A DNA stretch of 64,000 nucleotides from Hydrogenophilales bacterium 28-61-23 (lineage in GTDB: Bacteria > Pseudomonadota > Gammaproteobacteria > Burkholderiales > Thiobacillaceae). The notes below the pieces were generated by a model. That model worked only from the letters and a program-made list of their open reading frames with translations. It was not told the DNA's origin and searched no databases. The position numbers were made by a program, and so were the translations under genes. Below are positions 4,518-56,449 of the stretch, one piece after another (the first letter of the stretch is position 1; every line of letters begins with the position of its first letter). The DNA lies in contig NCGJ01000015.1 in assembly GCA_002281555.1 (NCBI GenBank), positions 1 through 64,000 of the forward strand. Direction: 5' to 3'.

Positions 4518-7941
<3,424 letters not shown>

Positions 7942-36742: not shown

Positions 36743-39046
<2,304 letters not shown>

Positions 39047-39064
39047 ATCGTTCGAATATCCGCA

Positions 39065-40407
<1,343 letters not shown>

Positions 40408-40411
<4 letters not shown>

Positions 40412-42300
40412 CCTGGCATGCGTGTGGAAGCCTCCGGCAGTCGCACGACGAAGCGGCTGCCGCGGCCGGGTTGGCTGTCGAATTCGATCTTGCCACCGTA
40501 ACCTTCGATGATCGAGCGGCAAATGGACAGGCCCAGACCGGTGCCGCTCTGGCCGTCGGCACGGTGGCTGAAGAAGGGGTCGAACACATGCGGGGCATCC
40601 TCGGCCGTGATGCCCACGCCGGTGTCCTCGAACACGATTTCCACCAACTCGCCGTCATGCCGGCTGCTTACGTTCAAGGTGCCGCCGTCTGGCATGGCAT
40701 GTATCGCGTTCTGCGCCAGATTGAGCACCACCGCGCGCAATTCGCTGTCTGTGGCCATGATGCGCGGGGTCGGAATTTCCAGTTGCGTGGAGATGGATAC
40801 CTTGTCTTCACCTGCCTCCCAGGCCAGCAAAGACAGGGTCTCTTCCACCGCCGGGTTGACTGCCACCAGTTGCGCCGTCGCCTGCGGCGTGATGCCTAGT
40901 TTCAGCAGGCGTTCCGTGACGTCGATGCAACGGTCGATCTCGCCATCCACCATCTGCAGATACTCGCGCAGCACCGTGGGTTGCTCTGCGTCCATTTCGG
41001 TGACGCGCAACATGGCATGCAGCGCGAGGCGGATCGAGGCAAGCGGATTGTGGATCTCGTGCGCGACACCGGTGGCCAGACGCGCCATCTCGGCCAGCTT
41101 TTGTTCCTGTGAGAACTTCAGCAGCTTGGCCAGGTCGCGGCTGGATTCCACGACAAAGTGTTTTTCCACCCCCTCCACCTGCGCCAGCAGGGGCGCCGCG
41201 AACACCTCCACCTGGCGCTCGCCGCCTTCGGCACGGCTGAAGTTCATCAGACTCTTGCAAGGCTGGCCATTCTTGCCGATCTCATGCAGCGGACAGCACA
41301 CCATCGAAGGCGGGCAGGGCGTGGCCCGCCCTTGGCTGGAGAGGTGGCACGGCGTGCCCGCGTGGCTGTGTGCAGGCAGAAGGCCGATCTGGTCACGGTA
41401 GGCCTGATTGTCGAGCACGATGCGGAAATTCTCGCTGTCGATCACCCGGATGCCATCGGGAATGGCATCCACCAGGGCTTGCAGGAAGGCCTCCTGCTCG
41501 CGGGTGCGGCGGATCAGACTTTGCAGGCTTTCCGCCATCTGGTCGAAGGTATGGCCGAGGTCGGCCAGTTCGTCGTGTCCGGAAAGGTGGGAGCGGCTTT
41601 CCATATGTCCCGCCGCCAGCGCGCGACTGGCGTCGGCCAGTCGCGCCACCGGCAGCAGCACGTAACGGTGGATGAACCAGGCGCCGCCCAACAAGGTGGC
41701 CAGCAGCAGCACTCCGCCCATACCGGCCAGCCCCACAGCAGAGAGGATGGCCTGGCGGCGGATCGGCACGGCGTCGTAATCCACCACCAGGACGCCATTG
41801 ATAGGATGTGCTGCCGCTGTTCCGTGGCAGCCGGTGCAGGCCGGTTTGTTGGCCACCGGGTTGAAGCTGCGCATGACTTCGCGCCCCTGTGCATCCAGCG
41901 TGAACTGGGTGGTGAGCGCAACCGGCGAGTTTTGTTGCGGGCAATCCAGGCACACCCCAAGCGCCCGCAAGGGAAACACCTGACCCAGTTGCGCCGGGTC
42001 GGAGGCGAAACGGATTTCCCCGTTGGGAGCAACGATCATCGCCCCGCGTACACCGTGTTGCTGTCCCATCTGGGTGACGATTTCGCGCAATCCGGGCAGA
42101 TCGCGCTTGAGCATGGCGTTCTCCAAAGCCGCCTGGAGCAACCGGTTGACCTCGCGCGAAGCCTGGCTGCGTTCCTGCGTCAGCTGGTGCTGATACAACG
42201 CCGCCGCCAGGCCGATCAGGGCCAGCGACAGGGTGAGCAATCCCGCCGCCGTGCCCAGCAGAAACTTGTGGCGCAGGCTCGTGATCCGGAAAAAAACCAT
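40408..42300 (-). CDS. Sensor histidine kinase with periplasmic CxxCH site and Cys-rich PAS region
   Basis: 630 residues. TM1 is at about 12-35. The periplasmic part includes C117-x2-C120 and a heme-type motif C155-TG-C158-H159. TM2 is at about 185-210, then HAMP, then a PAS region (about 270-380) with C318, C329, C335, C336 and C348. The H-box is ATGVAHEIHNPLASIRL with H414, and the HATPase domain ends FVVRLPEAS. A periplasmic c-type heme would let it sense redox state, oxygen or a heme ligand; the cytoplasmic cysteines could bind an Fe-S cluster or zinc. Both are inferences. It diverges from the multiheme/molybdoenzyme cluster that it presumably controls. Confidence 0.93.
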
Positions 42301-42408
42301 GCAAATACCTCGTGTTTCGGCGCGCTCAAGTCAATCGCAGGGCAGCCCCAAGATTGACCTGGCCCCAACGGGGCACAGCTAACCGGGACGACTGCCAACC
42401 TACGTTAC

Positions 42409-42421
42409 TGCCAGATTGGCA
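42409..42421. promoter_or_regulatory. Putative regulator-binding palindrome 1
   Basis: TGCCAGATTGGCA. Same 5-base arms as sites 2 and 3. Its centre is about 222 bases upstream of the -24 element. A half site (TGCCAA) lies just before it at 42393. Confidence 0.65.
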
Positions 42422-42493
42422 GACCTCGAACTGAACTGGCCTGCCGTAATGGTACGGATCATGCAGCCCCGATTCCTACCACTGAATGTCATG

Positions 42494-42510
42494 CCTGCCA
42501 ATTTGGCAGG
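42494..42510. promoter_or_regulatory. Putative regulator-binding palindrome 2
   Basis: CCTGCCAATTTGGCAGG, a perfect inverted repeat with a 3-base centre. Its centre lies about 135 bases upstream of the -24 element, in the normal range for an NtrC-type activator. Confidence 0.75.
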
Positions 42511-42540
42511 GCCAACCAACGGCTTTCCGGGGTTCTCGCG

Positions 42541-42569
42541 CGCCCTCCTGCCAACTTGGCAGGAGGGCG
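42541..42569. promoter_or_regulatory. Putative regulator-binding palindrome 3 (extended)
   Basis: The core TGCCAACTTGGCA (42549-42561) is extended to perfect 13-base arms from CGCCC to GGGCG. The centre is about 82 bases upstream of the -24 element. The extra arm length could also give an RNA hairpin, but it lies upstream of the predicted transcription start. Confidence 0.75.
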
Positions 42570-42636
42570 CGGCGTCGCCCGCTTGGATAAAAGCTCATAC
42601 ACATTAAAAACAAAGGGTTAGAAACGAAAATCGGCA

Positions 42637-42651
42637 TGGCACGGGCTTTGC
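42637..42651 (+). promoter_or_regulatory. Sigma-54 (-24/-12) promoter of the redox cluster
   Basis: TGGCACGGGCTTTGC matches the RpoN consensus TGGCAC-N5-TTGC completely with correct 10-base GG-GC spacing. It predicts a leader of about 60 bases before ATG 42723. Confidence 0.9.
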
Positions 42652-42722
42652 TGAATGGCTTGCATGTGGTGTGGCGCCGTCTGAACGGTGCGCATCTTGA
42701 TTGCAAACCGTCTGGAGGAAGC

Positions 42723-43076
42723 ATGTCCCACGACTTGACCCGAAAAGCCTGGCTATCCGTGGTTGTCACGCTCGCCGCATTTCTTGCCGTGGCGCCGGCG
42801 AGTGTCCTCGCCGATGAGTTCATTGCCGGCACGGAGCCATCGCTGCGGCCCGTCGGCGCGCCGGTGCTGCGTTCATTCACCAAGGACGCAGCCTGGTACC
42901 GCACCGCTCTCAGCGGCATCGAGGCCCCCCCTTATCCCTTCAGCCTGCGTTTCCTGGAAGACCAGGGCGCCTGGTACACCCCCTTCAATCGTCCAGGCCT
43001 GACCGGCCCCTACGACATCCGCAATTGGCACGGCTCCGCTTCCGGTGGTGCTGGTCGGTCCGTCCCAGGACGGTGA
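42723..43076 (+). CDS. Small exported protein of unknown function, first gene of the sigma-54 cluster
   Basis: 117 residues from ATG 42723, preceded by GGAGGA; the longer frame from 42636 would start inside the promoter. Signal peptide: KAWLSVVVTLAAFLAVAPASVLA. The mature part is rich in aromatic residues, Pro and Gly (GIEAPPYPFSLRFLEDQGAW, YTPFNRPGLTGPYDIRNWHG) and has no cysteine. The segment GAWYTPFNRPGLTG loosely resembles the aromatic spacers of the next protein (LMWFYAPPTG, IFFYPQQG). No family recognised. It is the promoter-proximal gene of the cluster. Confidence 0.8.
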   Translation: MSHDLTRKAWLSVVVTLAAFLAVAPASVLADEFIAGTEPSLRPVGAPVLRSFTKDAAWYRTALSGIEAPPYPFSLRFLEDQGAWYTPFNRPGLTGPYDIRNWHGSASGGAGRSVPGR

Positions 43077-43080
43077 ATTG

Positions 43081-43101
43081 AACGCTCTTGCGAGCGTTTT
43101 T
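43081..43101 (+). terminator. Terminator-like hairpin inside the cluster
   Basis: AACGCTC, TTGC loop, GAGCGTT followed by TTT. It stands directly after the first gene and 49 bases before the repeat-protein ATG. If active, it would make the first gene a short abundant transcript with read-through into the rest. Confidence 0.6.
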
Positions 43102-43149
43102 CCATGCCGGTCAGAAAGCCGGCTGTTTTGATCTCAAGGAGAGAATTCG

Positions 43150-44247
<1,098 letters not shown>

Positions 44248-44255
44248 GACGCCGC

Positions 44256-44313
44256 GCGCACCGTGTTCTGCGGTGCGCCGACTTCTGGGGGTGACGGGCG
44301 CAGCCCGTCACCC
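44256..44313 (+). other. Two hairpins between the repeat-protein and cytochrome genes
   Basis: GCGCACCG/CGGTGCGC (44256-44278) and a perfect 11-bp stem GGGTGACGGGC, GCA, GCCCGTCACCC (44289-44313). No T-run follows either. They may be processing or stability elements that set the ratio of the abundant repeat protein to the enzymes downstream. Confidence 0.7.
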
Positions 44314-44357
44314 TCCCTCCCATGTGATTGAGGCCGTTTCAGGCCAAGGAGAGGCAG

Positions 44358-45371
44358 ATGTCGCAATGTAATGAGAATGACCAGAAGTCCGAGTACGTCG
44401 GCAAGATCATCCTGTGGGTGGGGGTGGGGCTATCGCTGATGCTCGTGGCCGTTATGACCTTTGCTGCCGGCGAGCCTACGGGTCATGCCGCCGCGCGTTG
44501 GAACCCGCTGCATTTCAAACCCGCCATTGAACTGGCGGAGGACAAGGAATGCCTGGTCTGCCATGCCGAAGTGCTTAAACCCAGCGTGCGCGCTCAGTCG
44601 CCAGCCGGGGTTCGGGCCGACCAAAGTCTGGCCTGGTACCAGACCCTGGAGGTTTACAGCGGAAATCAGGACACCTTCCATCGTCGCCATCTGGTCGGCG
44701 AGTTGGCCAAAAAATTGATGAACCTGCGCTGCAATACCTGCCACCAGGGCCACGATCCCCGCGATGAGGCGCCCGGCACTTCGGCCACGACGCAGGCCAC
44801 TGCTTACACCTTGCGCAAACAGGTCGATCCGAAAACCTGTCTGATGTGCCATGGTCAGTTCAACCACGAGGTGATGGGGCTGCCCGGCCCGTGGGCGCAG
44901 CACGGCGAGACCTTCGGCAACAACTGCCTGATGTGCCATGAAGGCATCCGCACCAGCCGGCATAACGTCAACTTCCTGAAGCCGAAAGCGATCGAGGCGG
45001 CGGGGCGCGAATCCGCCGATCACTGCTATGGCTGCCACGGTGGCCGCGCCTGGTATCGCATCCCCTTCCCCTATCCGCGCCATGCCTGGGACGGCATGGA
45101 CAAGGACGTGCCGGATTGGGCGAAGAACCGGCCAACGGCCTCGGACCCTCGTTTCCTGCTGGATGTGTGGATTCCGCCTTCGGTCGTACCGGCGGCGGCA
45201 ACGCCCGCATCGACCGTATCGCCCGCCATCCCCGCAACCTCGGCGCCGGCCGCGAAAACCAGCAGCAAGGCCAAGCCCAAATCCCGCCCTGCTGTTGCCC
45301 GCAAAGCGCGCAAGAGCAGTTATGTCCGGATCCAGACCAGCAAGGGAAGCCAACATGTCAGCCAGATTTGA
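44358..45371 (+). CDS. Membrane-anchored pentaheme cytochrome c
   Basis: 337 residues from ATG 44358 with AAGGAG upstream. One N-terminal membrane segment (GKIILWVGVGLSLMLVAVMTFA, about 15-37) leaves the rest in the periplasm. Five CxxCH sites occur: CLVCH 65-69, CNTCH 125-129, CLMCH 161-165, CLMCH 190-194 and CYGCH 223-227. A Pro/Ala/Lys-rich tail (about 278-337) follows, ending in a basic stretch. It is not a clear NapC/NirT protein. The molybdoenzyme gene starts inside its last codons (17-base overlap), so the two are translationally linked. It probably passes electrons between the quinone pool or other cytochromes and the enzyme. Confidence 0.92.
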   Translation: MSQCNENDQKSEYVGKIILWVGVGLSLMLVAVMTFAAGEPTGHAAARWNPLHFKPAIELAEDKECLVCHAEVLKPSVRAQSPAGVRADQSLAWYQTLEVYSGNQDTFHRRHLVGELAKKLMNLRCNTCHQGHDPRDEAPGTSATTQATAYTLRKQVDPKTCLMCHGQFNHEVMGLPGPWAQHGETFGNNCLMCHEGIRTSRHNVNFLKPKAIEAAGRESADHCYGCHGGRAWYRIPFPYPRHAWDGMDKDVPDWAKNRPTASDPRFLLDVWIPPSVVPAAATPASTVSPAIPATSAPAAKTSSKAKPKSRPAVARKARKSSYVRIQTSKGSQHVSQI

Positions 45372-47940
45372 ATTCGACCTGAACCTCCTCAGCGAACGCC
45401 TGAACCCGGGCCGGCGCGAGTTCCTCAAGACCACCGCAGCGGGCGCCGGTGCGCTGGCGGCCGGCGGCCTGGTTGATCTGGGCACGGTGAAAGAGGCGAA
45501 AGCCTTCGCTTATGAGCCCTACCCGAAGGACGACCAGTTGACCACCGTGGTCACTTCCTGCGCCCACAACTGCGGCTCGCGCCACATGCTGGTGGCGCAC
45601 AAGAAAGGCGACGTGATCGTCCGCCTGTCCACCGATGACGGTCGTTATCAGCAGGGCGGCGTGTTCGGCAAGGACACCTTCGAGGAACCGCAACTGCGCG
45701 CCTGTCTGCGCGGCCGTTCCTATCGCCAACGCATCTATTCCGCCGAGCGCCTGCTATACCCGATGCTGCGGGTGGGCAAGCGCGGCGAGGGCAAGTTTAA
45801 GCGCATTTCCTGGGACGAGGCGCTGAACTATGTAGCCAGCAAGATGATTGAAATCAAGGATAAATACGGCCCCACCGCGCTGCTGGATCAGTCCTATGCC
45901 GGCGCTTCATATGGCGTGCTGCACAAGTCGGATCAGATCGAGGGGCTGCTCGGACGCTTCATGGGCATGTTCGGCTGCCGCACCAATTCCTGGTCGGTGC
46001 CGTCCTATCAAGCCACCACTACCAGTTCGCGCTGGACCTACGGCACCATCGAGGACGGCAACGAGGACGACACCTTCGCCCATTCCAAGCTGGTCATCAT
46101 GTGGGGCTGGAACCCGGCCTATACCTTCCACGGCGGCAATACCTTCTACTACATGCGCCTGGCCAAGCAGAACGGCTGCAAGTTCGTGGTGATCGACCCC
46201 CAATTCACCGATTCGGCGGCGGCTTATGACGCCTGGTGGATTCCGATCAAGCCGAATACCGATGCCGCGATGATGGCCGGCATGGCGCACTACATCTTTA
46301 TCAACAACCTGCAGGACCAGAGCTTCATCGACAGGTTCTGCCAGGGCATGGACGCCGGCACCATGCCGGCCTGGGCGGCACAGTCGCCCAATGGCGGCGA
46401 GAACTTCAAGGATTACATCCTGGGCAAGTACGACGGCGTGGCGAAGACGCCGGAATGGGCCTCCGCCATCTGCGGCGTGTCGGCGACGGACATCGTCAAA
46501 CTGGCGCATATGTACGCCACTACCAAGCCGGCCGCCTTGAAGGCATCGTGGGCGCCGGGACGGGCCGAGTACGGTGAGCAGTACAGCCGCATGGCGGCGG
46601 CATTGCAGGCGATGACCGGCAACATCGGGGTACTCGGCGGCTGCGCCGAGGGCGTTGGCAAGGCCTGGCACGCGGAGGCGGTGGCCTATCCCTACGATCA
46701 GTACGCCAACGTCTGGTTCGCCTCTATCAAGAGCGACCGCTGGGCGCATTGCGTATTGAACTACCCCAATGTGAAGCGCGAGGAAATCGGCTGCTGGCCG
46801 CGCCAGGACGCCACCGACGGGCAGATTCCCAACATCAAGGGTATCTTCTGGCAGGGGTCGGACTGGTTCAACCAGCTCACCAACATCAATAAGGAAATCG
46901 CCGCGATCCGCAAGCTGGAACTGGTGGTGTGCATGGATTCCACCATCACGCCATCCGGCCTGTGGGCGGACATCCTGTTGCCGGTGTCGACCCACTTCGA
47001 GCGGCATGACGTGGCTTTGCCATGGTACAAGGGGCACTACTACATCCACCGGCCGAAGACCATCCAGCCGCTGGGCGAGTCCAAGACCGATTTCCAGATA
47101 TTTACCGAACTGGCATGGCGTATCGGCGGCGAGACCTTCGGCCGCGCCTACAACCCGAAAGCCAATCGTGACTACTTCGACAACGACGATGCGGTGGACG
47201 AGGCCTATCTGCGCGAATGGTGGGAGCACAAGGTGATGGCGCACCAGCATGTCACGATGAGCTGGGAAGACTTCAAGATGCATGGCGTCTACAAGTTCAA
47301 GCTGGACCAGCCCCACGTCGCCTTCCGCGACCAGATCGAGAAGGGCAAGCCGTTCGCCACGCCATCCGGCAGGATCGAAATCCTCAGCTCGGAACTGGCC
47401 AGCATCCACGACTGGAAGAAGACCAAGTATGGCGCGCACATCCCGTCGATTCCGAAATGGATCGAGCCGAATGAATACCTCAACAACAAGAAGCTGACCA
47501 AGGATTTTCCCTTCCACCTGATCTCGCCGCACCCGCGCCATCGTACCCATTCCATCTTCGCCAACTGCACCTGGCTGAAGGAGGCGTTCGAGCAGGAATG
47601 CACGATCAACGCCAGCGACGCGAAACGGCTGGGGATCAAGACCGGCGATACCGTCGAGGTGTGGAACCAGCGCGGCAAGGTGGTGGTGCCGGCCTATGTC
47701 ACCGAGCGCGTGCTGCCGGGCGTGCTGGTGATCCACGAAGGGGCCTGGATGGATCTGGACGAATACGGCGTCGATCGTGGCGGCAACCCGGATTTCCTGA
47801 CCCTGGATGAGCCCAGCCCGGCCGGTGCGTTCACCTACAACAACGCCATGGTCAACATCCAGAAGACCGATCTGGAGCATCGCCCGGGCTGGGACACCAC
47901 GTCCACCTCGCGTTCCCACGTGTTCCGCCGCGACTACTAA
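45355..47940 (+). CDS. DmsA-like molybdopterin oxidoreductase, catalytic subunit, Tat-exported
   Basis: 861 residues from ATG 45355; the open frame upstream belongs to another reading frame of the cytochrome gene. Tat leader: NPGRREFLKTTAAGAGALAAGG. The Fe-S motif is C69-x3-C73-x3-H77 with C117 in ACLRGRS; DmsA has Cys where H77 stands. The following LRVGKRGEGKFKRISWDEAL, VVIDPQFTDSAA, KTPEWASAICGV and LPGVLVIHEGAWMDLDEYGV closely follow E. coli DmsA from memory. A serine in NSWSVPSYQA is at the probable Mo-ligand position. The C-terminal MGD-binding domain is complete. DMSO-reductase-family enzymes reduce or oxidise S- or N-oxides, selenate, arsenic or sulfur species; the substrate here cannot be read from sequence. 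No DmsC/NrfD anchor is encoded. Confidence 0.92.
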   Translation: MSARFEFDLNLLSERLNPGRREFLKTTAAGAGALAAGGLVDLGTVKEAKAFAYEPYPKDDQLTTVVTSCAHNCGSRHMLVAHKKGDVIVRLSTDDGRYQQGGVFGKDTFEEPQLRACLRGRSYRQRIYSAERLLYPMLRVGKRGEGKFKRISWDEALNYVASKMIEIKDKYGPTALLDQSYAGASYGVLHKSDQIEGLLGRFMGMFGCRTNSWSVPSYQATTTSSRWTYGTIEDGNEDDTFAHSKLVIMWGWNPAYTFHGGNTFYYMRLAKQNGCKFVVIDPQFTDSAAAYDAWWIPIKPNTDAAMMAGMAHYIFINNLQDQSFIDRFCQGMDAGTMPAWAAQSPNGGENFKDYILGKYDGVAKTPEWASAICGVSATDIVKLAHMYATTKPAALKASWAPGRAEYGEQYSRMAAALQAMTGNIGVLGGCAEGVGKAWHAEAVAYPYDQYANVWFASIKSDRWAHCVLNYPNVKREEIGCWPRQDATDGQIPNIKGIFWQGSDWFNQLTNINKEIAAIRKLELVVCMDSTITPSGLWADILLPVSTHFERHDVALPWYKGHYYIHRPKTIQPLGESKTDFQIFTELAWRIGGETFGRAYNPKANRDYFDNDDAVDEAYLREWWEHKVMAHQHVTMSWEDFKMHGVYKFKLDQPHVAFRDQIEKGKPFATPSGRIEILSSELASIHDWKKTKYGAHIPSIPKWIEPNEYLNNKKLTKDFPFHLISPHPRHRTHSIFANCTWLKEAFEQECTINASDAKRLGIKTGDTVEVWNQRGKVVVPAYVTERVLPGVLVIHEGAWMDLDEYGVDRGGNPDFLTLDEPSPAGAFTYNNAMVNIQKTDLEHRPGWDTTSTSRSHVFRRDY

Positions 47941-47964
47941 ACAGCGCTGAGAGGAGTCTGAAAA

Positions 47965-48645
47965 ATGGCTGATGAAAAAGCAGTTCACGAAAAAGACCCG
48001 GCGCAGATCAAGGCGGCGGTGAAGCGGCGCAAGAAAGAGGTCTATACCCCCGTCGTGCCGGACATGCAGTTGGGCTTTGTCCACAACAACGTCGACTGCA
48101 TCGGTTGCCGCGCCTGCGAGATCGCCTGCAAGGACAAGAACGGCCTGGCGCCCGGACCGCGCTTCCGCCGCGTGATGTATGTCGAAGGCGGCACCTTCCC
48201 GGAGGTCTATGCCTTCAAGCTGAACCTGTCGTGCAATCACTGCGCCGAACCGGCCTGCCTGCCAACCTGCCCGACCGGCGCGATCTTCAAGCGCAAGAAG
48301 GACGGCATCGTCGATATCGACTCGACCCTGTGCATCGGCTGTCGCCGCTGCGAGGCGGCATGCCCCTACGGCGCGCCGCAGTTCATCCCGGAACAGAACA
48401 TCGTTTCCAAATGCAACATGTGTGTCGACGAGATCGACGCCGGGCGTAAACCGTATTGCGTCATGGCTTGCAAGATGCGGGTGCTGGACATCGGTCCGAT
48501 CGACAAACTGCTGGCCGGCGAATGGGTCACCAAGGCGATGGGCAAGAACGAGAAAGCGGTGCGCGCGGTGAAGAATTTCGCCGACCCGGAACTCACCAAG
48601 CCGTCCATCGCTTTCATCCCACATAACAAAGCCAAGGTGGATTGA
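47965..48645 (+). CDS. DmsB-like iron-sulfur electron-transfer subunit
   Basis: 226 residues. Four ferredoxin-type cysteine groups: CIGCRACEIACKDKN, CNHCAEPACLPTCPTG, CIGCRRCEAACPYG and CNMCVDEIDAGRKPYCVMAC, predicted to hold four [4Fe-4S] clusters. It would carry electrons between the molybdoenzyme and the pentaheme cytochrome. It has no signal peptide and presumably travels with the catalytic subunit through Tat. It lies 24 bases after the catalytic gene. Confidence 0.94.
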   Translation: MADEKAVHEKDPAQIKAAVKRRKKEVYTPVVPDMQLGFVHNNVDCIGCRACEIACKDKNGLAPGPRFRRVMYVEGGTFPEVYAFKLNLSCNHCAEPACLPTCPTGAIFKRKKDGIVDIDSTLCIGCRRCEAACPYGAPQFIPEQNIVSKCNMCVDEIDAGRKPYCVMACKMRVLDIGPIDKLLAGEWVTKAMGKNEKAVRAVKNFADPELTKPSIAFIPHNKAKVD

Positions 48646-48647
48646 AC

Positions 48648-49427
48648 ATGCCTGTCACGGCCGTGGTGCCCCTGCCTACCGAGACCGCTGATGGCCTGAT
48701 GGCGGTATTTCGCGTCAGCGTCGGCGAAGACCTGGCCTTGCTGGCTGCCATGCATCACCAGGAAGTGGACGATAACCTGTTGGCGGTGCTGGCGGAATCC
48801 GGTTTTCCGAACCAGTTCGGAATCAACCTGACCCGCCTGCGGGCTCAGGAAGCCGTGAGCTTCATGCAACAAGCGATGGATGCGATGACCATGCCGCTTG
48901 ACGCCGTTCAGCGCGATGAATTGGCGGCTGATTACGCGTCCATCTATCTCAATCATGGTCTCTCCGCCTCGCCTACCGAGTCGTTCTGGCTGGACGAGGA
49001 GAACCTGGTGCTGCAAGCGCCGATGTTTCAGGTGCGTGAGTTCTATCGGCGGCATGGACGGGGCGTGGCGGACTGGCGCAAGCGCTCGGACGATCATCTG
49101 GTTCATGAACTGCATTTCATCGCCGAACTGATTCGGGCGGCGCAACCCGATGCACTCGAAGAGGCGGCCCGCTTTCTCGACGAACATCTTTTGCGCTGGC
49201 TGCCGCGCTTCGCCGAACGTGTCGCCAAGCGCTGCGTGACGCCGTTCTATGCCGGCGCGTCCTGGCTGACGGCGGAATACTGTGAGGAATTGCGTGATCT
49301 GCTGGCGTTGCTATTGGGCAAACCCCGCCCCGGCGCCGAGGAAATCGAGAAGCGCATGCAACCCAAGGTGCAAGCGCCAACAGTCGCACCTCTGACCTAT
49401 GTTCCTGGCATTGCGCCAACCTGGTGA
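48648..49427 (+). CDS. TorD/DmsD-type maturation chaperone
   Basis: 259 residues, all helical. Family features are DELAADYASIYLNHG, the SASPTESFWLDEENLVLQ segment and DHLVHELHFIAELI. TorD-family chaperones bind the Tat leader and assist cofactor insertion of a cognate molybdoenzyme. The start is ATG 48648, with AAGGTGG upstream; a TTG at 48642 overlapping the previous stop is an alternative. It directly follows the DmsB-like gene and has a Pro-rich C-terminal extension. Confidence 0.9.
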   Translation: MPVTAVVPLPTETADGLMAVFRVSVGEDLALLAAMHHQEVDDNLLAVLAESGFPNQFGINLTRLRAQEAVSFMQQAMDAMTMPLDAVQRDELAADYASIYLNHGLSASPTESFWLDEENLVLQAPMFQVREFYRRHGRGVADWRKRSDDHLVHELHFIAELIRAAQPDALEEAARFLDEHLLRWLPRFAERVAKRCVTPFYAGASWLTAEYCEELRDLLALLLGKPRPGAEEIEKRMQPKVQAPTVAPLTYVPGIAPTW

Positions 49428-49473
49428 CCCGTTATTACTTATTTCCAACCTGCATCCTCAAGGAGCACACAGC

Positions 49474-49788
49474 ATGAAAGCAATCCATTTGATTCCCCTG
49501 GCACTCGCCTCCGCACTGTGTCTGTCCACTGGTCTGGCCGCCGCCGATGAAGCCATCGCCAAGGCCAATGGCTGCATGGCCTGCCATGCCGTGGACAAGA
49601 AACTGGTCGGTCCTTCCTACAAGAGCGTAGCCACAAAATACAAGGGCGATGCCAACGCCGCCGACAAAATCGCGCATGAAGTGCGCGCCGGCAGCAAGGG
49701 TGTCTGGGGCCCGGTACCGATGCCGGCGCAGGCCAAGATCAGCGATGCCGACCTGAAGAAGGTACTGGCCTGGATTCTGGCTCAGTAA
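49474..49788 (+). CDS. Class I cytochrome c (c551/c552-like), periplasmic
   Basis: 104 residues from ATG 49474, preceded by AAGGAG. Signal peptide ends about LSTGLAAA. The heme site CMACH is in KANGCMACHAVDKKLVGPSYK and the Met ligand in GPVPMPAQAKISD. It is a small soluble shuttle, probably linking the pentaheme cytochrome or the enzyme to a terminal oxidase or to other donors. The upstream frame from 49399 lies in the end of the chaperone gene. Confidence 0.93.
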   Translation: MKAIHLIPLALASALCLSTGLAAADEAIAKANGCMACHAVDKKLVGPSYKSVATKYKGDANAADKIAHEVRAGSKGVWGPVPMPAQAKISDADLKKVLAWILAQ

Positions 49789-49794
49789 AGCATC

Positions 49795-50829
49795 ATGGCG
49801 GTCGGGGAGGGCTGCGCTGTCTTGCCGGAAATCGATGCGGCGCGCTGCGTGCACACCGCCATCGAGACCGCCTCCTGCCGCGCCTGTGTGGACGTGTGTC
49901 CGTCAGGCGCTTGGCGTCTGGATGACGCTGCGCTCGAAATCGATACAGGCCAGTGTGATGGTTGCGGCCTGTGTGTGCCGGCTTGTCCGCGCCAGGCTAT
50001 CCACTTGCCTCTGGTTTTCGCCCGGCGCCCACTGGCAGGTAGCAACGCCATGCTGGCTGCTTGCTATCGGGCCGCCGACGATAGACACACCGAATCCGTC
50101 GCCGTCCCTTGTTTACACGCTATCGGCCTCCTCGATCTCTTGCGTGCCTATCGCTCAGGTCAGCACATCTGGCTGTTGGCGTATCGGAATTGCGCCGACT
50201 GCGCGCATGGGCGCGGCGAGTCGCTGTTTACCCGTGCGGCGCATCTCAATACGGCCCTGCGCCAGCGTGGTCAGCCGACCATTCTGCTGCGCGAAGTGGC
50301 GATGTCGGTCTGGTCCCGCCTGATCAAGACACCGACTACAGTCCAGGAACAAGGGCGGAGGGAGTTTTTGCGCGCTTTGTCGCAGCGACCGGCAGCGGCG
50401 CTGTTGGGCGAAGATATCGTGCCCGAACAGGCAGTAAAGAAACCGCCCGGTGAGTATTTTCCAGACGGGGATGACGCGCTGTTGCCCTGGGTTGTGCATC
50501 TGGATGCTGCGCGCTGCGTCGGTTGTCATGCCTGCGCGCAGGTCTGCCCTGAAGGTGCAATCCGCTTCGTCGAATTTCCTTCCGCTTACTACCTGCGTCC
50601 ACGCGCTTGCTCCGGCTGTGGCCTGTGTCGCGATGTCTGCGCACTGCAGGCGGTCACCTTGCAGCCCTGGGCCGCGCCGACACAAACGGTTTTGCCGCTC
50701 AGCAAGCGGCGTTGTCGCGGCTGCGGCGCGGAATTTCATCTGCCTGTGGCAACCGCGTCTGGTGTTCAAGTCTGCTGGGTTTGTAGTCGCGCCAAACTGA
50801 CACGACGTTTGTATCAGGTCCTGAGTTGA
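49795..50829 (+). CDS. Polyferredoxin-like protein with C-terminal zinc-ribbon-like motif
   Basis: 344 residues, no signal peptide. The N-terminal pair of cluster motifs is CRACVDVCPSGAW and CDGCGLCVPACPRQA. A central Rossmann-like region follows (VAVPCLHAIGLLDLLRAYRS, WLLAYRNCADCAHGRG). A second pair, CVGCHACAQVCPEGA and CSGCGLCRDVCALQA, comes next, then CRGCGAEFH...CWVC, a probable zinc or extra iron site. The layout recalls ferredoxins with a HdrA/MvhD-like middle domain. It begins 7 bases after the cytochrome stop and ends the cluster. A cytoplasmic role, perhaps in electron supply or in assembling the molybdoenzyme, is inferred. Confidence 0.88.
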   Translation: MAVGEGCAVLPEIDAARCVHTAIETASCRACVDVCPSGAWRLDDAALEIDTGQCDGCGLCVPACPRQAIHLPLVFARRPLAGSNAMLAACYRAADDRHTESVAVPCLHAIGLLDLLRAYRSGQHIWLLAYRNCADCAHGRGESLFTRAAHLNTALRQRGQPTILLREVAMSVWSRLIKTPTTVQEQGRREFLRALSQRPAAALLGEDIVPEQAVKKPPGEYFPDGDDALLPWVVHLDAARCVGCHACAQVCPEGAIRFVEFPSAYYLRPRACSGCGLCRDVCALQAVTLQPWAAPTQTVLPLSKRRCRGCGAEFHLPVATASGVQVCWVCSRAKLTRRLYQVLS

Positions 50830-50883
50830 GGATTGCCGCCTGAGGGCGATGAGTTTCTGGGTTGCCCAATCACACGTTCATAA

Positions 50884-50917
50884 AAAACGGCCGACCGGTT
50901 GCCCGGTCGGCCGTTTT
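50884..50917. terminator. Bidirectional terminator between the redox cluster and fccAB
   Basis: AAAACGGCCGACCGG, TTGC loop, CCGGTCGGCCGTTTT, a perfect 15-bp stem with A/T ends on both strands. It separates the two convergent groups. Confidence 0.92.
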
Positions 50918-50933
50918 AGCGGGAACGCAGCGG

Positions 50934-52238
50934 TCAGATGTAGCTGTCGGAGAAGATGCTGTCCGCCCAGGTGAACATGTCCTGATAGCTGTCGCCATCG
51001 ACCATGTTCGACGCGGCTTCGCCGATGTCGACCCGATGCATGCCCTTGCCCTTCACGTTACCGGCGGCGTCGAAGATGTCGCCGTAGATGAAGTTGGTGG
51101 ACAGCCATGAGGACGTCTTGTTGGTGATCGGGCTGAAGCAGGCCGAACTGGTTGCGATGTCCTCGTCCGGTGCATCGCCGGTGAACGAACGGATGATCGC
51201 ATCGGCGCAGACCTTGGCTTCCGAGTTGGCCATGTGGCCGGACTTCGGCACCGGTTTGCCGTCGGAGGACGGGACCGCGCAGGAATCGCCGATGACATGG
51301 ATGTTCGGGTAACTGGCGATGCCGTAGGTCAGCGGATTCACCGGTACGAAGCCGGTGCTGTTGAGCGGCAGGCCCGCCGCGATGGCGCCGGCTTTCTGGT
51401 TGGGGATGTAGTTCAGCACCTTGGCCTTGTTGACGGTCATCGCGCTGGTCACGATGGAGCGGGTGCTGGAATCCACCGACAGCACGGTCGCGTTGGGCAC
51501 GTACTGGATGACGCCGGCGTGGGTTACGTTGAAGGCATGGCCGAAGGCTTCCGGTTCGGCGGTGATGCCGGCGTTGGCGTCCAGCACGATGACCTTGGCG
51601 CCGGTGCGACCCTTGCGCTTCAGGTAATCGGCTGCCACGCAGGCCCGTTCGTAGGGTCCGGGCGGGCAACGGTAGGGCGCCTTCGGCACCGTCATGACGA
51701 AGGTTTCATTGTTGCGCATGGCGGCCAACTGGTTTTTCAGCAGGGTGGTCTGCGGGCCGGCGATCCAGGCATGCGGCGTCAGGTTGGCATCCCAGTTGCC
51801 AGGGGCGGGTACGAAGTCGATGCCGGGTGACAGCACCAGATGATCGTAGGGCAGCACTTTGTTGCCGCTGCTGGTGCTGACCGTCAGCGTGTTGCCGGCG
51901 GCGTCGATGCCGACCGCGCGGCCTTGCATCACGGTGACGCCGTGGTTGGTCTTGAGCGAGCTGAAGCCCAGGGTGATCCGGCTCATCGACAGCGCGCCGG
52001 TCATGACCAGGTTGGAGAGGATGCAGGAAATATGGCTGGGATTGGCGTCCACCAGGGTGACCTGGACGTTGCCGCCCCACATGCGGACGTATTTCGCCAG
52101 CGTGGCGCCGCCGAAGCCGCCGCCGACCACGACCACGCGCGGTGCTGTTACAGCCGCGCCGACCGCGCGGGGGATGGCGGCCAGGGCGGAAATAGCGCCG
52201 GCCAGCTTAATAAATTGTCTTCTGTTCAGATTGTTCAT
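50934..52238 (-). CDS. fccB: Flavocytochrome c sulfide dehydrogenase, flavoprotein subunit
   Basis: 434 residues from ATG 52236-52238. Tat leader NRRQFIKLAGAISALAAIPR. FAD-binding VVVVGGGFGGATLAKYVR starts at about 35. C72 in SHISCILSN matches the cysteine that covalently holds FAD. Redox cysteines are present in YRCPPGPYERAC and GDSCAVP. It oxidises sulfide to sulfur in the periplasm and hands electrons to its cytochrome partner, encoded just upstream. A SoxF-type role beside a Sox system is also possible. Confidence 0.94.
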   Translation of the reverse strand: MNNLNRRQFIKLAGAISALAAIPRAVGAAVTAPRVVVVGGGFGGATLAKYVRMWGGNVQVTLVDANPSHISCILSNLVMTGALSMSRITLGFSSLKTNHGVTVMQGRAVGIDAAGNTLTVSTSSGNKVLPYDHLVLSPGIDFVPAPGNWDANLTPHAWIAGPQTTLLKNQLAAMRNNETFVMTVPKAPYRCPPGPYERACVAADYLKRKGRTGAKVIVLDANAGITAEPEAFGHAFNVTHAGVIQYVPNATVLSVDSSTRSIVTSAMTVNKAKVLNYIPNQKAGAIAAGLPLNSTGFVPVNPLTYGIASYPNIHVIGDSCAVPSSDGKPVPKSGHMANSEAKVCADAIIRSFTGDAPDEDIATSSACFSPITNKTSSWLSTNFIYGDIFDAAGNVKGKGMHRVDIGEAASNMVDGDSYQDMFTWADSIFSDSYI

Positions 52239-52255
52239 CGTGTTTGCTCCCGGGA

Positions 52256-52567
52256 TTAGTCGCCGCCGTTGCCGGGCAACGTGGACAAGAAGTTGGAAAT
52301 CAGGTCGAGCTGGGCATCGGTGTAACCGCGCGCCTGACGATCCATGATGCCCTCGACGGGGCGGTATTTCATTTCGCGCAATTCGTTGTAGAGCTCGCTG
52401 GCGCTTTTGCCCGCGATTTCGTCGAAGCCCGGACCGGCGCCGTTGGTGCCGTGGCATTGGGCGCACTGGGAGGCCAGCAAGCGGCCCGGTTCGGCTTGGG
52501 CGGACGTGGCCGCGATAAGCAGCGCGAAGCCGGTCAAGGTCGCGCGGGCGTAATTCAGAAAAGTCAT
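52256..52567 (-). CDS. fccA: Cytochrome c subunit of flavocytochrome c sulfide dehydrogenase
   Basis: 103 residues, taking the internal ATG at about 52565-52567 as start; a TTG at 52582 extends it by five residues. Signal peptide MTFLNYARATLTGFALLIAA-TSAQA. One heme site, CAQCH, and a Met in REMKYRPVEGIM as probable axial ligand. Its size and position 17 bases before fccB identify it as the monoheme FccA type. Confidence 0.88.
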   Translation of the reverse strand: MTFLNYARATLTGFALLIAATSAQAEPGRLLASQCAQCHGTNGAGPGFDEIAGKSASELYNELREMKYRPVEGIMDRQARGYTDAQLDLISNFLSTLPGNGGD

Positions 52568-52970
52568 ATATTTACCTCGCAAGTTAATATTCGGTTCAGG
52601 TAAGCCAAATCGGTCAGTCAGGTTTCCATGTCAAGCATGGCGGGCGCCAGTATACGAGTAAAAAAATTACACGCAACAGCATCATTGCTTTCATGGTTTT
52701 GTTACGGGAGTATTTAAGGTGAAAGTTCGTGGGGAAAATTACACACAAGCCGACTGGCCTTGGCCCGGCTTGGCGGACAGGGCGGATGTGGCCGCGCGCG
52801 CCACGACCCGTGACTCCGTTAAGTGACTGGACTATTTGGCGGTCCCAATTCAAAAGAGATATCCGAATGAACCCTCTGAATCGGGCCGCATCATGACCTC
52901 CAGTGTTGCCGATAGACTCAAAGCCATGGCGCCGGTTGTTATCGGCGGGATTGTCGCCTTATCGGGATGC
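52568..52970. other. Non-coding stretch upstream of fccAB
   Basis: The first about 150 bases (52568-52720) are AT-rich and probably hold the fccAB promoter on the minus strand; I found no -24/-12 element. The rest contains only short open frames. One of them, starting at 52893 (MTSSVADRLKAMAPVVIGGI then VALSGC), looks like a truncated lipoprotein-like start and then runs antisense into the permease gene. I do not call it. Confidence 0.5.
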
Positions 52971-53888
52971 TCAAAGCAGCTTCAGCAGCGCCACCACGCC
53001 CAGAACCAACGTGACCACGCCGACCACGCCGCGCAGGGAGGCTTCCGAAGTGCGGCTGACCGTCAGCGTCGCCATCGGCACCGAAAGCAGCGCGCCCAGC
53101 GCCAGCGGCATGGCTAGTTCCCAGGCGATGCTCTGACCCATGGCGAGATAGCCGAGCACGCCGATCAGGCAGGTCAGCGATTCCGCCACGGACGTCACCG
53201 CCACCGCGTGTTTGGCGGGCAGGCCGGAAACCACTTGGCCAGCGGTGACCAGCGGGCCGTAGCCGCCGCCGGACAAACCCTTGTTGAACGCGGCGATTGC
53301 GCCGATCGCGACGATGCCGCCGGCCCGATACGGGATCTGGCGATTACGGGTCAGCAGGATGATCACGCCCATTGCCAGAATGATCGCGGTGATGAATAGC
53401 CCGAGCCAGAATTTTGAAATGCTGATTGCCAGCCATACCGCCAGCAACGCGCCGACGCCGCTCAAACTACCCAGCAGCAGGGTGGTTTTGCGCGCGCGCG
53501 GGTCGCGCAGGAAATCGACGTTGCCATCGCGTTGATGCAACAGGCCGGCGCTGAGGCCGGTCATCAATTCGCTCAACAAGATGGCGGGCACGATTTGCAG
53601 CGGCTCGAAACCGGCCAACAACAGCACCGGGGTCAATGTCGTGCCATAACCCATGCCCAGGCTGGAATCCATGTATTCGCACGCCAGCGCGGCCAGGAAG
53701 ATCGCCAATACGGTGAATGTGGGCAGGCCCAGCGCCGCCCCCGCTGAGACATCCCAACCTGGCAAGTAATGCAGCGTGACCAGTAGCCCGACCACGCCGC
53801 TCACCAATAGCAGCCATAAACGCGTGCGCCGGCTCGACAAAGGCGGCAGGGCGGCTAATGACAGGGCTCTTGGCGACGGGGTGGGCAT
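52971..53888 (-). CDS. TauE/SafE family membrane permease
   Basis: 305 residues from ATG 53886-53888, with AAGGAG upstream. About eight membrane segments. The family core motifs are LACEYMDSSLGMGYGTTLTP and AAFNKGLSGGGYGPLVTAG, related by the usual internal duplication. TauE/SafE proteins export sulfite, sulfoacetate or other anions. In a sulfur oxidiser a sulfite or related exporter is plausible. It has its own -24/-12 promoter, which faces the sigma-54 activator gene. Confidence 0.92.
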   Translation of the reverse strand: MPTPSPRALSLAALPPLSSRRTRLWLLLVSGVVGLLVTLHYLPGWDVSAGAALGLPTFTVLAIFLAALACEYMDSSLGMGYGTTLTPVLLLAGFEPLQIVPAILLSELMTGLSAGLLHQRDGNVDFLRDPRARKTTLLLGSLSGVGALLAVWLAISISKFWLGLFITAIILAMGVIILLTRNRQIPYRAGGIVAIGAIAAFNKGLSGGGYGPLVTAGQVVSGLPAKHAVAVTSVAESLTCLIGVLGYLAMGQSIAWELAMPLALGALLSVPMATLTVSRTSEASLRGVVGVVTLVLGVVALLKLL

Positions 53889-53923
53889 GATCGACTCCTT
53901 GTGGTTGCGGATGCCTCTGTCTT

Positions 53924-53938
53924 GCATAAGCCGTGCCA
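53924..53938 (-). promoter_or_regulatory. Sigma-54 promoter of the TauE/SafE gene
   Basis: The minus strand reads TGGCACGGCTTATGC, with 10 bases between GG and GC; it differs from consensus by one base in the -12 box. It ends 36 bases upstream of the permease ATG. Confidence 0.75.
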
Positions 53939-53970
53939 TTCGATAACGGCGCGCGATGCGGGCCGATTTT

Positions 53971-54000
53971 TGGCTTACTCTGGCCTAAACTGGGCTATGA
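53971..54000. promoter_or_regulatory. Three 10-bp direct repeats upstream of the permease promoter
   Basis: TGGCTTACTC, TGGCCTAAAC and TGGGCTATGA stand end to end, one helical turn apart, 33 bases beyond the -24 element and just upstream of the activator gene. They are a candidate binding array for that activator. The repeats are imperfect. Confidence 0.45.
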
Positions 54001-54022
54001 AATAGAAAAACAAGGAAATGAA

Positions 54023-55189
54023 ATGGACATTAATGAAATAAAACAGATTCCAGACGGTGTGCGTGTGCTGGAAGAACTTGCCGCGCAGTGCAACGGCAGC
54101 GACTTGGGCGTCGAGGATTTTCTTGTGGAACTTGGCAACATGCTTGGCCCCGGCGCGCGCCAGTTGGTCATGCGTTTGATCGAGGAACGCAACACGACTC
54201 GGCAGAAGCGCGCCGGCCTCAATGAGGACATCGTCGGCGCTGAGGCGGGCTTGCGCGAGGTGATGGCGGCGGTGCGGCAGGTTGCGCGCGCCGATGCGCC
54301 GGTGCTGATCCTGGGCGAAACCGGCACCGGCAAGGAGGTGGTTGCGCGCGCTTTGCATGCGCACTCGCGGCGAGCCAACGGCCCGATATTGCGCGTCAAC
54401 TGCGGCGCCATTCCGCCCGAGCTGATCGACTCCGAACTGTTCGGCCACGAACGTGGCAGCTTTACCGGTGCGCTGGGCACGCGCAAAGGCTGGTTTGAGC
54501 GCGCCGATGGCGGCACCTTGTTCCTCGATGAAGTCGGCGAATTGCCGCTGGCCGCGCAAGTGCGACTGTTACGGGTCTTGCAGGACGGCAGTTTCCAGCG
54601 CGTTGGCGGCGAACGCAGCCTGAATGTCGATGTGCGTCTGGTCGCGGCGACCAATCGGGATTTGCGCCAGACGGTGCGGGACGGCGGTTTTCGGGAAGAC
54701 CTATGGTTTCGCATCGCGGTGTTCCCGATTCCGCTGCCGCCGCTACGCGAGCGTTTGCAGGACATTCCCGCCCTGGCGGCGCATTTTTCGCTGCGTGCCG
54801 CCGAACGCCTGGGGCTGCCGCCGCGCATGCCGGACGCCGCCGATCTGGCCTTGCTGGCGGCGTATGCCTGGCCCGGCAATATTCGCGAACTGGCCTCGGT
54901 GATCGAACGTGCCGCCATTCTGGGCGATGGCCGTCGTCTGGAAGTCTCACGCGCATTGGGCGTGTCGTCGCCGCTCGGTGCTGATTTGTCTCCGCGGGTT
55001 GCCAATCGGCCGCTATCCAGCTTTGAAGACGCGATCCGTTGCCATATCGAAGCCGCGCTCAACCATTGCCACGGCCGCGTCGAAGGCCCGTTCGGCGCGG
55101 CGTGTCTGCTTGATCTGAACCCGCATACCCTGCGCTCGAAAATGCGCAAGTTGGGCCTGGAGGGGAAACGCTATCGAGCTGGCGATTGA
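54023..55189 (+). CDS. Sigma-54-dependent activator lacking a receiver domain
   Basis: 388 residues from ATG 54023, after AAGGAAATGAA. Only about 70 N-terminal residues precede the AAA+ domain, and they do not look like REC or GAF. Walker A is GETGTGKEVVA, the sigma-54 loop GSFTGAL and Walker B GGTLFLDEVGE. A C-terminal helix-turn-helix follows (GPFGAACLLDLNPHTLRSKMRKLGL). With no receiver it may be controlled by a partner protein, as PspF is, or by level. It diverges from the TauE/SafE gene, whose sigma-54 promoter is its likely target. Confidence 0.93.
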   Translation: MDINEIKQIPDGVRVLEELAAQCNGSDLGVEDFLVELGNMLGPGARQLVMRLIEERNTTRQKRAGLNEDIVGAEAGLREVMAAVRQVARADAPVLILGETGTGKEVVARALHAHSRRANGPILRVNCGAIPPELIDSELFGHERGSFTGALGTRKGWFERADGGTLFLDEVGELPLAAQVRLLRVLQDGSFQRVGGERSLNVDVRLVAATNRDLRQTVRDGGFREDLWFRIAVFPIPLPPLRERLQDIPALAAHFSLRAAERLGLPPRMPDAADLALLAAYAWPGNIRELASVIERAAILGDGRRLEVSRALGVSSPLGADLSPRVANRPLSSFEDAIRCHIEAALNHCHGRVEGPFGAACLLDLNPHTLRSKMRKLGLEGKRYRAGD

Positions 55190-55204
55190 GCGGACGGAAA
55201 CCCT

Positions 55205-56449
55205 TCAGATCAGCAGCCAGCCCAACACCAGTCCACCGGCGACCGCGGCCATGCCGGGGAGAATCCGTCGGGCCAGCGCGCCGCCGCCGATGACGCTGGC
55301 GAGGCCGCTCTTGAAGGCGATGTTGGAAAGCACCGCGAGCAGAATGGCGTTGGCGGTCTGGTCGGATTGCAGGTTGCCGAGGTTGAACAGACGCAGGCTG
55401 GACAGGGTGATGGCGTCGACATCGGTCAGGCCGGAGACCAACGCCACAGCGTAAACACCTTGGCTGCCGACCAGATCGGAGAGCCAGGCGGCGGCGAACA
55501 AGACCGCCGCGTAGAGCAGGCCAAAGCTGAGCGCGGCGCGGATTTCCGTCGGGTTTTTCATCTCGAGCGTGGGCGCGGTGTGCGTGTCGTCGAGCCGACG
55601 CCAGGCCAGATACAGCACGACCAGCCCGGCCAGCGCGCCGCCACCCAGCAGCGTCAGTATCGGTTGCCACAGACCCGGCGCCAGGACGACAACCAGCACG
55701 GACAGACGCACCAGCAAGACCCAGTTGGCGAGCAGGATGACCAGCGCCGCCATGCTCGTGAGATTCGGGGAACTGCGGGCATGGCGCGAGAAGGCCAGTG
55801 TCGTCGCGGTGCTCGACGCAATGCCGCCAAACAGGCCGGTGAGCAAGGTGCCGCGGCGTTGTCCGGCGACGCGCAAGGCGGCATAACCGGCCAGCGACAA
55901 GCCCGCGATCAGTACCACCATCCACCAGATCTGATACGGGTTGAGAGCGTTGTAGGGGCCGTAATCGCGATCCGGCAAAATCGGCAAAATGACGAAGGAA
56001 AGCACAGCGAATTGCAGAATGGAGACCAAGTCCAGGCGTGTCAGGTTGTGGGTGACGCCGCGCAATTCGGGTTTGAAATAGAGCAGGGCGGTGGTCAGGA
56101 TGGCGAGCGTGACTGCCAGTTGTTCCATGTCGTACCAGACCATCGCGCCAAGGCCGTAGCACACGACGACAGCCGCGACCGTGGTGGTGCCGGGATCTTC
56201 CGTTTCGATGTCCTTGAAGTAAGTCGCCACCATCATGCCGCCCATGATCAGCAGGCCGGCGCCCAGTACCCAGGGCGCGCCGGTTTTTTCGGACAGCAAC
56301 GCGCCCAGCGTGCCAGCCAGGGCGACCAGCGCAAAGGTGCGTAATCCGGCGCGCGCGGCGGGCGAACGTTCGCGTTCAAGCCCGATCAGCAGGCCAAGCG
56401 CGAGGCTGGTCAGGAAGGGGTAGAGAGCGGCGAGTTGATTGGTTTGCAT
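55205..56449 (-). CDS. MgtC/DUF4010 membrane protein
   Basis: 414 residues from ATG 56447-56449; the frame extends to 56518. The N-terminal MgtC-like domain has SLALGLLIGLERERSPAARAGLRTFALVAL; the C-terminal DUF4010 domain follows, with repeated GLFGGIASSTATTLAFSRHA and GLTDVDAITLSSLRL motifs. About eleven or twelve membrane segments. Function is not known; transport is likely. Confidence 0.88.
   Translation of the reverse strand: MQTNQLAALYPFLTSLALGLLIGLERERSPAARAGLRTFALVALAGTLGALLSEKTGAPWVLGAGLLIMGGMMVATYFKDIETEDPGTTTVAAVVVCYGLGAMVWYDMEQLAVTLAILTTALLYFKPELRGVTHNLTRLDLVSILQFAVLSFVILPILPDRDYGPYNALNPYQIWWMVVLIAGLSLAGYAALRVAGQRRGTLLTGLFGGIASSTATTLAFSRHARSSPNLTSMAALVILLANWVLLVRLSVLVVVLAPGLWQPILTLLGGGALAGLVVLYLAWRRLDDTHTAPTLEMKNPTEIRAALSFGLLYAAVLFAAAWLSDLVGSQGVYAVALVSGLTDVDAITLSSLRLFNLGNLQSDQTANAILLAVLSNIAFKSGLASVIGGGALARRILPGMAAVAGGLVLGWLLI

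Follow-up and report, generated by a model that had tools for sequence, protein, structure and literature searches.

In perchlorate reducers, the Met-rich peptide MrpX and the methionine sulfoxide reductase YedYZ are described as a periplasmic methionine cycle against hypochlorite (PMC4623255). DorA, the dimethyl sulfoxide (DMSO) reductase of R. sphaeroides, reduces protein-bound methionine sulfoxide (MetO), at about 45,000 per M per s when oxidised casein is the substrate, of whose MetO it reaches only part, and the Trp of its SYGW motif is called necessary for sulfoxide reduction (PMC7402097). We describe here a gene cluster found in a stretch of 64,000 nucleotides (hereafter referred to as the window) of contig NCGJ01000015.1 of Hydrogenophilales bacterium 28-61-23, the genome of which consists of 3.5 Mb in 30 contigs. 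The cluster encodes an exported Met-Gly repeat protein, a pentaheme cytochrome c and a DmsA-like molybdopterin enzyme with its DmsB-like and TorD-like partners. An earlier note on the window had listed nine elements, from a sigma-54 promoter to a polyferredoxin, as contiguous and in the same direction, and all were found in place on the + strand; the divergent two-component pair that it had reported was identified with Pfam, on the - strand, as a CxxCH kinase and an NtrC-type regulator (Table 1).

The cluster resembles MrpX/YedYZ in plan, as both pair a periplasmic Met-rich protein with a methionine sulfoxide reductase (putative here) under dedicated control, by a two-component/sigma-54 system in the cluster and by SigF/NrsF (sigma/anti-sigma) in MrpX/YedYZ (PMC4623255). 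An exported Met-rich protein is genetically tied to a molybdoenzyme here too, but this enzyme is DmsA-like and not a member of the YedY family, and the cluster adds DmsB, a multiheme cytochrome and a chaperone for twin-arginine translocation (Tat), MrpX being compared by description rather than by sequence. The window's genome contains no match to NF003767, a model that we take to represent MsrP. By analogy, the present system would work like MrpX/YedYZ, without being a member of it. DorA belongs to the same DMSO reductase family, is periplasmic and reduces protein-bound MetO, but it acts as a monomer, has DorB and DorC as its membrane partners and carries the SYGW motif (PMC7402097); it is compared here only through the match to structure 1eu1. 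The E. coli DmsABC/YnfEFGH systems share with the cluster the A and B subunits, a Tat-type N-terminus, a TorD/DmsD-type chaperone and a B subunit with 16 Cys, whereas the present system has only 36% identity to DmsA, a His in place of the third Fe-S Cys, no DmsC, and additional cytochromes and a repeat protein. Shewanella DmsEFABGH likewise joins DMSO reductase AB to a multiheme cytochrome without DmsC, but is an outer-membrane system with a porin and a decaheme cytochrome and without a Met-Gly protein (compared by description only).

We consider it about an even bet (probability of roughly 0.5) that the cluster encodes a periplasmic methionine redox cycle, in which the repeat protein is a renewable oxidant sink and the molybdoenzyme is its methionine sulfoxide reductase. 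The exported Met-Gly protein would present dense methionines, which oxidants would convert to MetO, and the DmsA/DmsB-like pair, with the TorD-like protein assisting its maturation and Tat its export, would restore methionine from the sulfoxide. Electrons would reach the enzyme through the periplasmic pentaheme cytochrome, from cytochrome c or the quinol pool. The heme-c kinase would sense the periplasmic redox state and the sigma-54 regulator, acting at the palindromes, would turn the operon on. The pairing of the repeat protein with a relative of sulfoxide reductases hints that, beyond the inner membrane, the cell maintains a chemical shield or redox buffer that can be recharged.

The conservation of the set was investigated in two samples. 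A search of 369 genomes of the class with the DmsA-like protein (E ≤1e-100) identified it in 16, including the window's own, with 71–82% identity for the others; a scan of a genome collection provided 305 relatives, the best 80 of which (76–97% identical) were used. The resulting census of 96 loci (16 + 80) comprised 90 distinct loci after the removal of six duplicates, and gene presence was called by BLAST and a composition rule, with many contigs being short. The pentaheme cytochrome and DmsB were each present in 88 of the 90 loci, TorD in 84 and the polyferredoxin in 64, with lower counts for the small exported protein (42), kinase (35) and regulator (34), on contigs that were often short. 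The cytochrome preceded DmsA in 87/88 loci, and the polyferredoxin lay upstream of the cytochrome in L060 and L098. The Met-Gly repeat was found in 77/90 loci (64 by BLAST and composition, a further five, and eight cut at the contig start); among the 43 loci that extend 2.6 kb or more upstream of DmsA, 39 have it. The repeat gene reaches the contig or locus end in 29 loci. The recurrence of the repeat protein with the cytochrome and the DmsA-like gene, which the earlier note had proposed as a check, was borne out.

The linkage was also apparent at genome level. A DNA pattern for the Met-Gly repeat, run on the same 369 genomes, matched 17: repeat and enzyme occurred together in 15, the enzyme alone in one, the repeat alone in two and neither in 351 (Fisher 1e-23; here and below, Fisher values treat related genomes as independent, with no correction for kinship, the 16 carriers spanning 14 genera). 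The locus of the enzyme-only genome, L036 in G032, has a variant repeat. In one repeat-only genome (G273, locus L185), a contig ends with the kinase-side half of the cluster, comprising the regulator, kinase, small exported protein and repeat; in the other (G238), the pattern belongs to an EF-hand-like protein that has a short Met tail. In 14/16 carriers, the cytochrome follows immediately after the repeat, and a Rhodobacter xanthinilyticus plasmid, predicted to be conjugative, carries the whole set, including the kinase and regulator.

The DmsA-like enzyme scored 623 bits with TIGR02166 (DmsA/YnfE subfamily), below the curated cut-off of 777.7. All 16 carriers fell between 507.6 (a truncated copy) and 627.6 bits, none of the 369 genomes exceeded the cut-off, and the next matches reached at most 457 bits, the best of them (G084) being of the TorA/BisC type. 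The best family models were those for DMSO/selenate and other S/N-oxide reductases, and the best solved relative was the DMSO reductase 1eu1 (240.8 bits). Identity to TorA/BisC-type references was 29–33%. The closest relative among those listed was the DmsA-like protein of a metagenome-assembled genome deposited as Tepidiphilus sp. J10 (L037; 97% identical). Phylogenetic analysis (FastTree) was performed on 92 family members, E. coli DmsA, YnfF, TorA and BisC, Rhodovastum DmsA, G084 and three paralogues from the window's genome; truncated L019 was left out of the first alignment and truncated L035 out of the tree input, in which the N-termini were trimmed. The family was monophyletic, with a support of 0.918 and a long stem, but its branching order relative to DmsA and BisC was not resolved. 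It forms a separate clade within this small reference set, and the family tree that the earlier note had called for does not place it inside a characterised clade with these partners.

The Ser that ligates molybdenum in DmsA, TorA and BisC corresponds in the alignment to Ser217, which is kept in 92/92 sequences, as in the type III (Ser-ligated) S/N-oxide reductases; DorA is also Ser-ligated, and the sulfur-chain enzymes PsrA and PhsA are Cys-ligated at molybdenum. Tyr181, also kept in 92/92, sits at the Tyr of the BisC/DorA SYGW motif, which reads SYAG here (Tyr, Ala and Gly in 92/92, Ser in 83/92). The Fe-S motif CxxxCxxxH...C was present in all 91 sequences covering the region, whereas the third position is occupied in E. 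coli DmsA and YnfF by the Cys expected for the DmsA/YnfE subfamily. Given the Ser ligand, the S-oxide-type Tyr and the tight link to a methionine polymer, the simplest function would be that of a methionine sulfoxide reductase for that polymer. The earlier note had raised the possibility of a pathway oxidising a sulfur species; the invariant Ser ligand and S-oxide-reductase Tyr do not support this, and the link to sulfur oxidisers described below is real yet not obligatory. In the Lamellibrachia symbiont locus L077, the cytochrome-DmsA-DmsB unit occurs twice in tandem, with the second copy cut by the locus end.

The repeat protein has the form (Gly-Met-x)n, with x mostly Ser, Gly or Asn, and short inserts such as YFKITPQGQIFFYP break up the array. 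Across 70 homologues and fragments, the Met-Met spacing was exactly three in 3510 intervals, the next most common spacing being 20 (60 times). In a polyproline-II-type helix, with three residues per turn, every Met would lie on one face, as judged from this register. Codon usage is mixed (Ser, AGY 23 and TCN 39; Gly, all four codons), indicating that the repeat is maintained at the protein level; on the strength of this mixture and of conservation, we rejected an origin of the repeat by chance or from a frame artefact. The protein is matched by the Collagen and phage tail models of Pfam because of the Gly at every third residue, and kinship with collagen or tail fibres was not adopted, as there is no proline among the x residues of the M-x-G units. 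For the small exported protein, the predicted structure was poor (predicted template modelling score 0.26). An extra gene lies between the kinase and the small exported protein in 21/90 loci and bears short modules similar to those of the repeat protein.

Other Met-rich proteins were encountered in different settings. Stand-alone repeat proteins (MEGMSGMEG and MSGMSSMDG types) occur in L179 and L183 (G177), distant from the DmsA cluster, and the exported protein of L184 (G238:C22), read as EF-hand-like, has a short MSGMEG/MSGKDG tail and a different context. A second set in one genome (L177, G009:C131) consists of a upx-type protein, a small protein with the YFVKLPSGDIYLFP module, a Met-Gly protein and a polyferredoxin-like fragment, with no DmsA on the stretch examined. 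In L032 (G123), after position 5480 and 3' of the pentaheme cytochrome, a cytochrome-like frame carries a GSFKITATGEILLSP module resembling the inserts of the repeat protein.

The operator palindromes and sigma-54 sites are conserved. The window contains a single exact match to the sigma-54 consensus TGGCAC-N5-TTGCT, namely the promoter upstream of the small exported protein; as four matches with up to one mismatch were found against 3.25 expected, the site is weak taken alone, and its backing comes from conservation in related regions. Sites of this type (≤2 mismatches) were present in 24/26 regions between the kinase and the first operon genes, one of which has zero length, versus 0–15% of shuffled copies of single regions. 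The three upstream palindromes have the form TGCCA-N3-TGGCA, for which seven matches were found with up to one mismatch (shuffle mean 1.85; 0/100 shuffles reached seven), and exact CTGCCANNTTGGCAG occurs in the window's genome only at these three sites. The degenerate palindrome TGMCA-N3-TGKCA had 36 copies in 22/25 kinase-to-operon regions, against an average of 0.12 and a maximum of one in mononucleotide shuffles. The CxxCH heme motif and the three PAS cysteines of the kinase were kept in 32/33 related kinases. The idea of the earlier note of a regulated redox system in the periplasm, made up of a Met-Gly protein, a pentaheme cytochrome and a DmsA-like enzyme, is supported, and this system is conserved.

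The five CxxCH motifs of the pentaheme cytochrome were invariant in the 36 aligned sequences (the window protein and 35 of 62 listed homologues), and the cytochrome of the Rhodobacter xanthinilyticus plasmid has one further N-terminal heme motif. The match to Pfam Cytochrom_NNT (NapC/NirT) was close to but below the cut-off (22.8 versus 24.1 bits), and a low-confidence structural model (mean predicted local distance difference test 63) yielded one insignificant match in a fold search. By eye, most N-termini look like cleavable signal peptides, whereas anchoring is conceivable for the window protein and for L097, L104, L107 and some others; a crude signal-motif rule passed 75/86 cytochromes, including the window protein, and so cannot separate anchored from cleaved forms. 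In most lineages, the cytochrome probably has no membrane anchor, and the proposal of the earlier note that an anchored cytochrome replaces DmsC does not hold in general, although the window protein could be anchored. No DmsC-type anchor was seen, with an E. coli DmsC or YnfH match in only 1/96 loci (short ones in many cases, and with no family-wide search for NrfD-type anchors). This match, in L099 (16202–18094), is on the opposite strand, and the sole DmsC-family match in the window's genome adjoins a PhsA-like gene. No dedicated quinol-oxidising subunit was evident in the cluster. A CxxCH protein lies between TorD and the polyferredoxin in 31/63 loci with both in order, and L044 has a TorC-like cytochrome.

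The cluster is common in rDsr sulfur oxidisers, but is not tied to them. A dsrA match above cut-off was found in 14/16 carriers and 23/64 other genomes (Fisher 2e-4), and a soxB match above cut-off in 12/16 and 29/64 (Fisher 0.05), the 64 non-carriers having been taken in handle order, with mostly small genomes omitted by eye. Among 19 further carriers, hand-picked to favour other lineages, nine had dsrA above cut-off and 10 did not (one partial match), including four Dechloromonas and one Accumulibacter. Many carriers bear sulfur-oxidiser and symbiont names. A thioredoxin-like protein of about 530 amino acids is encoded downstream of the cluster in 19 loci (L022, 6941–8533 after reversal, and 18 others), many of them named lucinid symbionts.

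This distribution leaves some room for a repeat protein that is structural or sulfur-binding, such as a sulfur-globule coat, with the DmsA-like enzyme acting on a sulfur compound in sulfur oxidisers. The dsrA enrichment, the names of many carriers and a Gly-rich repeat with Gly at every third residue would all fit, as would the dmsAB-annotated genes near soxY and dsrAB in lucinid symbionts (PMC11237559), which may or may not be the present genes, but the Ser-type active site and the 10/19 hand-picked carriers without dsrA above cut-off make this explanation unlikely. A literature search for a Met- and Gly-rich sulfur globule protein found none, which says little. Binding of soft metals such as Cu(I) by M-x-x-M arrays, with the reductase serving a separate function under a shared regulator, would account for the dominant Met-Met spacing of three, which is familiar from the Met motifs of copper proteins; we nevertheless give it little credence, as it leaves the tight repeat-enzyme linkage unexplained and no recognised copper gene was present among the four neighbour groups found in at least six loci (open reading frames of at least 80 amino acids). 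An equally improbable reading is a plain respiratory reductase for DMSO or a similar S-oxide with a multiheme electron supply, like Shewanella DmsEFABGH, and an accessory repeat protein: it is in line with the best family models and the Ser ligand, but all 16 carriers score below the DmsA family cut-off (about 508–628 bits), and it gives no reason for a conserved methionine polymer.

Several observations also weigh against the methionine cycle. The repeat is missing from L034, L083, L094 and L112 despite sufficient upstream sequence, and carrier G123 has no repeat beside the enzyme, the pattern being on a different contig (downstream of its cytochrome is a cytochrome-like frame with the FKITATGEILLSP module and no repeat run). 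In G131, the repeat lies with the kinase and regulator on a different contig, beside an unrelated gene, and the DmsA contig begins inside DmsA. Stand-alone Met-rich repeat proteins occur, the Trp of the DorA SYGW motif is not kept (E. coli DmsA also lacks the motif), the presence of NF003767 is unrelated to that of the cluster (7/16 carriers versus 34/64 others, Fisher 0.58), and the methionine-cycle model does not in itself lead one to expect an association with rDsr sulfur oxidisers. Sulfite autoxidation may yield MetO; a text search on sulfite-driven methionine oxidation returned nothing apparently to the point among the papers listed.

Somewhat more tentatively than the methionine cycle itself, we propose that the polymer may act as a redox buffer that is recharged in the periplasm, possibly as an electron sink in the solid phase, and that the cytochrome-fed DmsA-type enzyme, with His at the Fe-S site and the repeat as its substrate, may represent a class of protein-methionine-sulfoxide reductases distinct from MsrA, MsrB, MsrP and DorA, and one that gene transfer would have carried to various respiring proteobacteria, sulfur oxidisers among them. 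If true, many environmental sulfur oxidisers and chemosynthetic symbionts would have such an oxidant-handling system, which would make it possible to study cleanly both a methionine polymer with a sacrificial role and the use of a protein substrate by a sulfoxide reductase. The enzyme genes are easily mistaken for dmsAB and taken as a sign of DMSO metabolism; this may be the case for the lucinid symbiont dmsAB mentioned as DMSO reductases in PMC11237559. Text searches, with most subscription journals and all bioRxiv preprints outside their scope, retrieved no description of the gene combination or of the repeat.

Table 1. Features of the cluster and of the divergent regulatory genes (window coordinates).
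Feature	Position	Strand	Basis
NtrC-type sigma-54-dependent response regulator	39065..40411	-	Pfam Response_reg, Sigma54_activat; 34/90 loci, many short
Sensor histidine kinase, HAMP, PAS	40408..42300	-	Pfam; periplasmic CxxCH (residues 155-159), conserved PAS Cys 318/329/336
Operator-like palindrome CTGCCAGATTGGCAG	42408..42422		Palindrome search, conservation
Operator-like palindrome CTGCCAATTTGGCAG	42495..42509		Palindrome search, conservation
Operator-like palindrome CTGCCAACTTGGCAG	42548..42562		Palindrome search, conservation
Sigma-54 promoter TGGCACGGGCTTTGCT	42637..42652	+	Exact consensus TGGCAC-N5-TTGCT; conserved sites in relatives
Small exported protein ('sexp')	42723..43076	+	Unmatched in Pfam and NCBIfam; alignment of 23 sequences with 17 invariant columns
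Exported Met-Gly repeat protein	43150..44247	+	94 of 365 residues are Met; (Gly-Met-x)n, interrupted by short stretches such as YFRISPAGEIFFYP
Pentaheme cytochrome c, N-terminal hydrophobic segment	44358..45371	+	Five CxxCH; Cytochrome_C7 (Pfam)
DmsA-like molybdopterin enzyme	45355..47940	+	Tat-type N-terminus RREFLK; S217 ligand; Fe-S motif CxxxCxxxH...C; TIGR02166 below cut-off
DmsB-like Fe-S subunit, 16 Cys	47965..48645	+	TIGR02951, 192.8 bits versus cut-off of 214.1
TorD-like chaperone	48648..49427	+	Nitrate_red_del (Pfam); TorD model, 79.8 bits versus 132
Exported monoheme cytochrome c	49474..49788	+	Cytochrom_C (Pfam)
Polyferredoxin-like protein, no evident signal peptide	49795..50829	+	Fer4 matches; 64/90 loci

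No Rfam match was obtained for window positions 38000–56000. Beyond the cluster, the stretches 50934–52582 (- strand), 52971–53939 (- strand) and 54023–55189 (+ strand) were noted. They hold a flavoprotein with a weak SQR-type match, corresponding to the FccB of the earlier note, and two proteins without an NCBIfam match, one small and cytochrome-like, the other membrane-like and read as TauE/SafE-like. A second sigma-54 activator is also encoded there, with a one-mismatch sigma-54 site at 53923–53938 (- strand).

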